DNA from: Alphaproteobacteria bacterium | Lineage (GTDB): Bacteria > Pseudomonadota > Alphaproteobacteria > SMXP01 | Assembly: GCA_028285305.1 (NCBI GenBank) | Contig: JANQPV010000036.1 | Location: 1 to 64,000 of the forward strand | Length of the DNA stretch: 64,000 nucleotides | Reading direction: 5' to 3' | In this document: positions 11,697 to 13,674 of the stretch, in pieces | Layout of the letters: every line of letters begins with the position of its first letter | Position numbering within the stretch: the stretch's first letter is position 1 | Notes under the pieces: generated by a model | Databases searched by the model: none | The model's input: the letters and a program-made list of their open reading frames with translations, nothing else | Told to the model about the DNA's origin: nothing | Translations under genes and position numbers: made by a program

Positions 11697-12773
11697 TCAG
11701 CGCCGCGCGGGTGCCAGTTCCCTCGCCTTTTCGGTAACTTGCAAGAACATCGGATCAACTGACCGCTCATGGAAGCCCAGACACGCCTCGGTCAATTTGA
11801 TCACATGGTCATCCCCATGCTGAACAGCGTGGTCGATCAACTCTTCGCGGGACGGTTTCTCACTAGCCGATGCACGATCGACTTCAGGTTTTGTGGAATA
11901 GACCACATGCATCGCTGCACCCGTTTCCCACGCGCGCCTCAAAAGCTTTGCTCTCACGTCTTGGCTCACGATCGGCGCCAAGTTGAGCGCGGCCGCCAAA
12001 GACGTCAGCGCATGGGTAAAGACAATGCCGGTGAGCGGCGTGGTGGCCGACATCAAGAAGAGGTCCGCAAACATCCGCGCCAACTCAAGCGCACGCGCCT
12101 CCTGATCTCCTGACAGATCAATATCGGCGATCTTGCTCGCGAAGCCCTCCGAGTGCGCCACGCTTTCGAGAGCCACTGTGATGGCCCCTCCATTGTTTCT
12201 TTTTGCGTCTGGAACAAGAGAGAGGGAATTGAGCATGTCCCGGGCTAAGTGTGTGCCGGACCCTCCATCCTGCACGAAGCTGGGTTTGTTGAAACAACTC
12301 GCCCAATAGGCAAGCGCCCGGGCGCATTCGTTGAGTCGTTCTGGCGTTTCCCCTCGCTCCAACGCCCGCGTAATATGTCCCACACGAATGATACCATGCG
12401 TGGCATCGGCAACGTATCCCGCTTGCAGCCGCTCAACCCATTTCCCAACAACGGGGCGCCACCCCTCTTCCCAAATAGCCTCCTCGAAGAACCGGACCCA
12501 AGCCGTATAGGCCTTGCGGTAGCCGAGATAGGTCTCCCACTTCTCCGGATTGACGAAGAGTGCTGTTTGCGGCGCATGTGTGAGGTTGGGCAACTCCGTC
12601 TCAAGCCAGGGTCCAATGGCCTCGGCCCGTCCCATGGTCTCCAGCGCCTCCACCACCATGGGCGCATGCAGAGCAAAACCGTTTGTTAAGTAAGGGCCGT
12701 ACTCAGAGAGAACCTCAAGGGCGGAATCATAAGGTGACTGTTCAGCGGTTTTAAGGGCTCCGGCGGTATCCAT
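11697..12773 (-). CDS. Questin oxidase-like family protein (DUF4243)
   Basis: A 358-residue protein. The open frame extends upstream to 13034, but the ATG at 12773 has GGGAGA 7 nt before it and avoids running through the divergent soxR gene. The motifs SEYGPYLTNGFALHAPM and DATHGIIRVGHITRAL, with conserved His residues, are those of the questin oxidase-like family. In fungi the named member opens an anthraquinone ring by a Baeyer-Villiger-type oxidation; bacterial members have no established substrate that I know of. The gene is divergent from soxR, and its promoter carries a MerR-type dyad between -10 and -35 elements 19 bp apart. That makes a redox-cycling or quinone-related role plausible (inference). 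Confidence 0.72.
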   Translation of the reverse strand: MDTAGALKTAEQSPYDSALEVLSEYGPYLTNGFALHAPMVVEALETMGRAEAIGPWLETELPNLTHAPQTALFVNPEKWETYLGYRKAYTAWVRFFEEAIWEEGWRPVVGKWVERLQAGYVADATHGIIRVGHITRALERGETPERLNECARALAYWASCFNKPSFVQDGGSGTHLARDMLNSLSLVPDAKRNNGGAITVALESVAHSEGFASKIADIDLSGDQEARALELARMFADLFLMSATTPLTGIVFTHALTSLAAALNLAPIVSQDVRAKLLRRAWETGAAMHVVYSTKPEVDRASASEKPSREELIDHAVQHGDDHVIKLTEACLGFHERSVDPMFLQVTEKARELAPARR

Positions 12774-12810
12774 GTTATATTCTCCCATCTCTTGCACTCG
12801 GCTGCCAAAG

Positions 12811-12841
12811 AATATACAAGTTAAAGTAAACTTGAGCTCAA
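12811..12841 (-). promoter_or_regulatory. MerR/SoxR-type promoter with 19-bp spacer and dyad operator
   Basis: Read on the minus strand, a -35-like TTGAGC (12841-12836) and a -10-like TATATT (12816-12811) are separated by exactly 19 bp. The spacer holds the perfect dyad CAAGTT-N6-AACTTG (12817-12834). A 19-bp spacer with a central dyad is the hallmark of MerR-family activated promoters, and the half-sites resemble the E. coli SoxR site in the soxS promoter. The promoter points to the questin oxidase-like gene; the dyad also lies 14 nt before the soxR start codon, so it could autoregulate soxR. Confidence 0.7.
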
Positions 12842-12848
12842 GAGAAAA

Positions 12849-13334
12849 ATGAACCGCCCTTCGAGAGACCCCTTCATCAGCATTACCGAGTTCGCGAAAC
12901 GGTCTGGCCTCAAGGCCAGCGCACTCAGATTTTATGAGCAAGAAGGCCTGATTCGCGCGGCCCGCAGCGCCAGCGGCCGCCGTCACTTCGCGAGAAGCGA
13001 CTTGAGGCGCGTCGCCTTCATCCAGGCCGCCCAATCGGTGGGTTTGTCCCTAAACGACATCAAGGACGCCCTTGCATCCCTGCCCAACGGCCGCACACCC
13101 ACAAAGGCGGACTGGCAAAAGCTCTCCAAATCCTGGGTTCCCATGATCGATGCAGAAATCGCAAAACTGGTGCGCCTTCGTGATGCATTGTCCTCATGCA
13201 TCGGCTGTGGTTGTTTATCCTTGAAAGTTTGTGAGCTGTATAACCCCGGCGATACAGCCAGCCGCTTGGGCAAAGGCGCAAGATACTTGAAGGGCGATTC
13301 GGCGGCTAAGGCAATGGAGTCCGAAACGGCTTGA
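12849..13334 (+). CDS. soxR: Redox-sensitive transcriptional activator SoxR
   Basis: A 161-residue MerR-family regulator. The N-terminal winged helix reads ISITEFAKRSGLKASALRFYEQEGL (residues about 10-34), followed by the long dimerisation helix. The [2Fe-2S] cluster motif CIGCGCLSLKVC (about residues 117-128) keeps all four SoxR cysteines with the standard spacing, and the NPGD that normally follows is present. SoxR senses redox-cycling compounds or superoxide by cluster oxidation and activates 19-bp-spaced promoters. Here such a promoter lies immediately upstream and faces the divergent questin oxidase-like gene. The start is an ATG in an A-rich leader without a strong ribosome site. No soxS gene is seen, as is usual outside enteric bacteria. 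Confidence 0.92.
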   Translation: MNRPSRDPFISITEFAKRSGLKASALRFYEQEGLIRAARSASGRRHFARSDLRRVAFIQAAQSVGLSLNDIKDALASLPNGRTPTKADWQKLSKSWVPMIDAEIAKLVRLRDALSSCIGCGCLSLKVCELYNPGDTASRLGKGARYLKGDSAAKAMESETA

Positions 13335-13383: not shown

Positions 13384-13674
13384 ATGACCGCCTATATCGT
13401 TCTTGATTTCTCCGTCCACGACTACGACACCTTCATCGAATACGCCAACCGCGTGCCAGCCTTCATGCAAAAGCACGGGGGCCACTACATCGTTCGGGGG
13501 GCGGAGCCGGAAGTGATGGAGGGCAACTGGATGCCGGAGCGGCTCGTGATTATCGAGTTTCCCTCAAGGAAAGACGCGGTCGCGTTCCTGGACGATCCCG
13601 ATTTTCAAGAGCTCAAAGAAATCCGCATAAAGACGACGACCAGCAAGCTGGTTCTTGTGGATGGCGTGGAATGA
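13384..13674 (+). CDS. DUF1330 domain protein
   Basis: A 96-residue DUF1330 protein, which is a dimeric ferredoxin-like alpha/beta barrel. The diagnostic parts are the opening MTAYIVLDFSVHDYDTF, the HGGHYIVRGA segment and ERLVIIEFPSRKDAVAF. No enzymatic function is established for the family. The ATG has AAGGAG 8 nt upstream. It is 49 nt downstream of soxR on the same strand, and its stop overlaps the ATG of the next gene (ATGA), so it is probably cotranscribed and translationally coupled with the UPF0178 gene. Confidence 0.88.
   Translation: MTAYIVLDFSVHDYDTFIEYANRVPAFMQKHGGHYIVRGAEPEVMEGNWMPERLVIIEFPSRKDAVAFLDDPDFQELKEIRIKTTTSKLVLVDGVE

Follow-up and report, generated by a model that had tools for sequence, protein, structure and literature searches.

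A SoxR regulator and a divergent questin oxidase family gene as a candidate one-target redox detoxification module in an alphaproteobacterium

In Streptomyces coelicolor and Pseudomonas aeruginosa, redox-active metabolites cause SoxR to activate directly a small number of genes that carry a soxbox in their promoters; these genes encode oxidoreductases, a monooxygenase and transporters (PMC4146615). On the enzyme side, the closest solved structures are deposited in the PDB as a hydroquinone dioxygenase (PaD), a non-heme iron dioxygenase (AflY) and a questin oxidase (BTG13), and the title of Deng et al. 2024 describes BTG13 as an atypical nonheme iron dioxygenase that cleaves an anthraquinone C-C bond. 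Here we describe a locus that appears to join the two, in a stretch of 64,000 nucleotides (hereafter the window) from an alphaproteobacterium of the SMXP01 lineage. Its features are listed in Table 1.

Table 1. Features of the soxR and questin oxidase (QO) locus in the window
Feature	Position	Strand	Basis or remark
Gene of the QO family (Questin_oxidase, PF14027); product of 358 aa, a probable non-heme-metal dioxygenase; candidate SoxR target	11697-12773	-	Pfam
-10 element TATATT of QO promoter, 19 bp from -35	12811-12816	-	sequence
CAAGTT-N6-AACTTG dyad, not the conserved register	12817-12834		0 mismatches
Predicted soxbox GCTCAAGTT/TACTTTAAC	12820-12837	-	register shared with QO promoters of eight other genomes
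-35 element TTGAGC of QO promoter	12836-12841	-	TTGA in all aligned SoxR-QO promoters
soxR, MerR-family [2Fe-2S] regulator, 161 aa	12849-13334	+	TIGR01950, 185.2 bits
DUF1330 gene after soxR, possible associated gene	13384-13674	+	PF07045, 100 bits

The window SoxR scores well above the curated cut-off (116.9 bits) of TIGR01950, the NCBI SoxR equivalog model, and matches E. coli SoxR (2zhg) with 124 bits (E 5e-35). The four cluster cysteines noted in the original prediction are in place at residues 117, 120, 122 and 128, in the motif CIGCGCLSLKVC (C-x2-C-x-C-x5-C), and are invariant among five aligned SoxR proteins. Family and cysteine motif together predict a [2Fe-2S] redox sensor. It is the only SoxR above the TIGR01950 cut-off in the whole 5.4-Mb genome (G000). 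Around residues 44-48 the protein has GRRHF in place of the (G/N)QRR(F/Y) of the other aligned SoxR; the soxbox of the same genome has a variant right half.

The divergent gene had been called questin oxidase-like, and this assignment agrees with the match to PF14027 at 58 bits (gathering cut-off 27) on the strand opposite to soxR. Its open reading frame extends to 13034, and the start was set at the ATG at 12773 because the promoter, a GGGAG Shine-Dalgarno sequence and the homologues agree on it. An AlphaFold2 model built with 38 homologues, which is metal-free, has a pLDDT of 92.4. Foldseek returned significant matches to BTG13, AflY and PaD only, and VIA-align gave these solved members Z scores of 32.6-34.8 over 336-339 aligned residues, the next match having a Z of 6.1. 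A phmmer search of the PDB with the single QO sequence gave no match, so that profile and fold were needed to see the relationship; in a profile search PaD was reached with an E of 0.0023. As identity in the structural alignments is only 13-18%, the fungal substrate is not transferable to the window QO. Seven residues (H36, H126, H254, T257, D321, H323 and K326) are invariant down to about 21% identity, and the four histidines plus the lysine (H36/H126/H254/H323/K326) are the probable metal ligands. We take BTG13 to bind its iron through four histidines together with a carboxylated lysine, a site that the invariant set would fit. The proposal that this protein handles quinones thus gains support from the modelled fold, which is that of fungal quinone- and hydroquinone-cleaving dioxygenases; the metal, the substrate and ring cleavage by the window enzyme are what we infer from that relationship.

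The QO promoter was predicted to have -35 and -10 elements 19 bp apart, and both were found at this spacing, facing QO. The same prediction noted a CAAGTT-N6-AACTTG dyad between them and looked to orthologous regions for its conservation. The dyad is indeed perfect and lies between the two elements, but its role as a conserved operator did not hold: its register is wrong and the other SoxR-QO promoters do not have it in this form; they carry instead a canonical soxbox, which keeps register with the same -35 and -10 elements. By itself the dyad is also weak evidence, because such repeats are not rare in shuffled versions of the 75-bp intergenic region (a 6+6 repeat with a spacer of 6 in 1.9%, and with any spacer of 0-12 in 17%). 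Aligned by the -35 element, the promoter of Marinicauda salina (L020) reads TTGACC-TCAAGTTAACTTGAGGAAC-TAGGGT, with close variants in three other genomes (L021, L027 and L046), and the window promoter in this shared register reads TTGAGC-TCAAGTTTACTTTAACTTG-TATATT. Compared with the canonical soxbox CCTCAAGTTAACTTGAGG, the window box matches at 13 of 18 positions, the weakest in the SoxR-adjacent set; its left half is canonical and its right half, ACTTTAAC, is a variant that recurs as TTGACTTAAAGTTCACTTTAACTTGCATAAG in the soxR-divergent promoter of L147. Using an operator matrix made from eight QO promoters of other genomes, with the window left out, the window QO site scored 26.5 bits against 11.0 for the second-best site in the 64 kb, and none of 20,000 shuffles reached 26.5 bits. 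Once scored in the register of the other SoxR-QO promoters, the whole QO promoter is far beyond chance.

The co-occurrence of soxR with this family, which the original prediction proposed to survey, was followed in a search of genome contigs, which yielded 80 QO loci, these being the 80 best-scoring among 322 relatives. Six further genomes (L020, L021, L027, L046, L096 and L097) have soxR divergent and adjacent to QO, each with an in-register soxbox in between and the 19-bp spacer. They include M. salina of the Maricaulaceae (soxbox 18/18), Sphingomonas changbaiensis (L021), an Oceanicaulis (L027) and an actinomycete metagenome-assembled genome (L046). Among 150 genomes searched in the order that holds the Marinicauda genome, 59 have SoxR; this search supplied two of the six soxR-QO pairs, and all three strong QO genes there (3/3) are soxR-adjacent. 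Two actinomycete loci (L111 and L113) have a soxbox (14/18) directly upstream of QO and no adjacent soxR; SoxR is encoded elsewhere in these genomes, and their QO proteins are about 21-25% identical to that of the window. The QO-promoter soxbox is absent from the five sampled alphaproteobacterial QO genomes with no SoxR over the cut-off (G013, G056, G126, G146 and G229). On a tree of 50 QO proteins the soxbox trait requires at least five changes, the exact number being soft as three end branches are long, and the window QO groups with relatives from genomes lacking SoxR, away from the Maricaulaceae/Sphingomonas group and from the actinomycete cases. In one of the two unlinked actinomycete loci (L113, 900-1080, + strand) the -10 element of the soxbox promoter lies almost at the start codon (TACGGTCGGGGCATG), which suggests that this QO transcript is leaderless or has a very short leader.

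The conservation of both adjacency and soxbox in distant genomes argues strongly for SoxR control of the questin oxidase-like gene, and we regard SoxR regulation of QO as well supported by these comparisons, from which SoxR binding and QO induction are predicted. Since the soxR start is only 8 bp from the QO -35 element, the soxbox may partly serve autoregulation. That the box serves soxR alone and QO is a bystander neighbour would fit this closeness, but is very improbable: the -35/-10 pair faces QO, the box also occurs at QO genes far from soxR (L111, L113 and the Micromonosporaceae), and soxR stands beside QO repeatedly in unrelated genomes.

QO matches were found in 93 of 201 Micromonosporaceae genomes. 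Their upstream regions were scored against 200 shuffles each, using a matrix to which only the six soxR-adjacent promoters contributed, and 29 of 30 promoters tested beat all 200 shuffles. The sites have the same 19-bp layout and lie 22-32 bp before the start. With the same matrix, none of 51 QO promoters in a Streptomyces-dominated set beat all shuffles. The 1.5 kb on either side of the Micromonosporaceae QO genes contain no SoxR-like gene, so their regulator acts from elsewhere. This distance, and the CTCAACC/TTCAGG variants among many of their boxes, would suit a different MerR-family regulator at the conserved QO promoters of genomes in which soxR is not adjacent, chiefly those of Micromonosporaceae, SoxR control then being confined to adjacent pairs. 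We consider this possible but doubtful, as CCTCAAC-type boxes also occur in SoxR-adjacent promoters (L119, L138, L152 and others) and in each of three Micromonosporaceae genomes tested one or two SoxR proteins exceed the cut-off. SoxR is therefore the leading candidate as regulator of these genes, another MerR protein being possible.

The gene divergent to soxR varies among genomes and may encode glyoxalase-fold proteins, ABC transporters, ABM monooxygenases or N-acetyltransferases; QO is thus one effector among several in the soxR-divergent slot. A glyoxalase/VOC-fold protein (LEHVNVTVSDP...) stands behind soxboxes beside soxR in L125 and several of L151-L162, and recurs in many genomes of the same order. 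At two loci (L140 and L143) the soxbox (17/18 in L143) precedes a soxR-divergent gene for a two-part protein, receiver-like at its N-terminal end and with an arylamine N-acetyltransferase as its C-terminal part (PF00797, 218 bits in L143); this may be a further SoxR effector without a description so far. In Actinoplanes aureus (L120) a transketolase-like N-terminal part follows a soxbox-like promoter divergent to soxR, and in S. avermitilis a transketolase gene has a soxbox (PMC4146615). Finally, the soxR-divergent 430-aa protein of L147 (1300-1560, - strand) has no Pfam match; its WSHALT and THGDAHLAK motifs (THGDAH..K) and a weak QO profile match make it look like a very distant QO relative.

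Within its own genome, the pattern search recovered the QO site (one mismatch) and three weak sites, while a control pattern likewise gave four, so that no convincing soxbox was found by this search besides that of QO. The system therefore resembles a local switch with only one target. The best weak site (L131, contig C28 near 196735) was rejected as a SoxR target because it reads like a PpsR-type TGT-N12-ACA sequence. We presume it to be a PpsR-type site. It lies upstream of a B12-binding regulator, opposite a bchF-like gene; these genes and the TGT-N12-ACA sequence suggest that the host carries photosynthesis genes. The DUF1330 gene is a possible functional partner of QO, and DUF1330 genes are divergent to QO in three relatives (L004, L006 and L007), none with soxR at that place. 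As an obligatory partner it is not supported, with no match beside the other soxR-linked QO genes.

Taking together the family identities, the promoter architecture, the recurrent linkage and soxbox, the fold and the conserved residues, all read from sequence, we favour as reasonably probable a one-target SoxR detoxification module, in which oxidised SoxR induces a metal-dependent ring-opening QO that removes the inducer. SoxR would sit on the soxbox inside the over-long 19-bp spacer of the divergent QO promoter. A redox-active compound, be it a quinone, a phenazine or another redox cycler, would oxidise its [2Fe-2S] cluster, and the oxidised protein would untwist the promoter and allow RNA polymerase to transcribe QO. 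The product would be a helical dioxygenase like BTG13, AflY and PaD that depends on a metal, probably iron; it would then open the quinone or hydroquinone ring oxidatively and so remove the inducer.

Under the same regulation, QO might instead serve in biosynthesis or tailoring, with a redox-active metabolite of the cell itself as its substrate. The S. coelicolor SoxR regulon does contain enzymes resembling those of antibiotic tailoring (PMC4146615). The genes annotated around the window QO (8-15 kb) are two SDRs, an enoyl-CoA hydratase, DUF1330, YaiI and a methyltransferase, with no polyketide synthase among them, and in most linked genomes soxR-QO is surrounded by unrelated genes. The pathway contexts of the fungal relatives BTG13 and AflY, which we take to be polyketide pathways, speak for this alternative, but given these surroundings we judge it unlikely.

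Beyond detoxification at this locus, the QO family may comprise widespread bacterial quinone/hydroquinone ring-opening dioxygenases, recruited repeatedly under SoxR-type promoters (in Alphaproteobacteria, in actinomycetes and at most sampled Micromonosporaceae QO genes) and dedicated to destroying redox-cycling compounds; on this wider reading our confidence is evenly balanced. SoxR itself is already known. For the predicted role of the QO family as a SoxR effector we found no description, and in the papers searched "questin oxidase" does not occur together with SoxR, an absence that is no proof of novelty. The prediction assigns a testable function and a class of inducers to a bacterial enzyme family that is still uncharacterised, adds a ring-opening metal dioxygenase to the predicted effector types of SoxR, and offers a module of one gene and one regulator in which to test how non-enteric SoxR handles redox-active natural products. 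The recurrence of soxR-QO in distant bacteria points to an undescribed disposal route for redox-active toxic molecules. If this is true, quinone ring cleavage would serve as a defence distinct from efflux and reduction, the routes that SoxR is known to use.

Compared with the SoxR regulons of S. coelicolor and P. aeruginosa, in which no QO family gene is among the listed targets (PMC4146615), the window has a single predicted target, divergent to soxR. The QO genes of the Streptomyces-dominated set lack a soxbox (0/51), unlike the window QO. With the E. coli SoxRS system the locus has in common the SoxR family and the canonical soxbox type, but it has no soxS-like intermediate activator, and the enzyme gene is predicted to be under direct control. 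Among the fungal enzymes, AflY (8yxs) and PaD (8z4q) are larger, with 446-463 residues solved, and only 16-18% identical to the window QO, but their fold (Z 32.9) and a related H..D.H..K motif are shared with it. BTG13 (7y3w), from the fungus Cercospora, has 440 residues in the solved chain and 13% identity to the 358-residue bacterial protein, yet the two have a common fold, with a Z of 34.8 over 337 residues.
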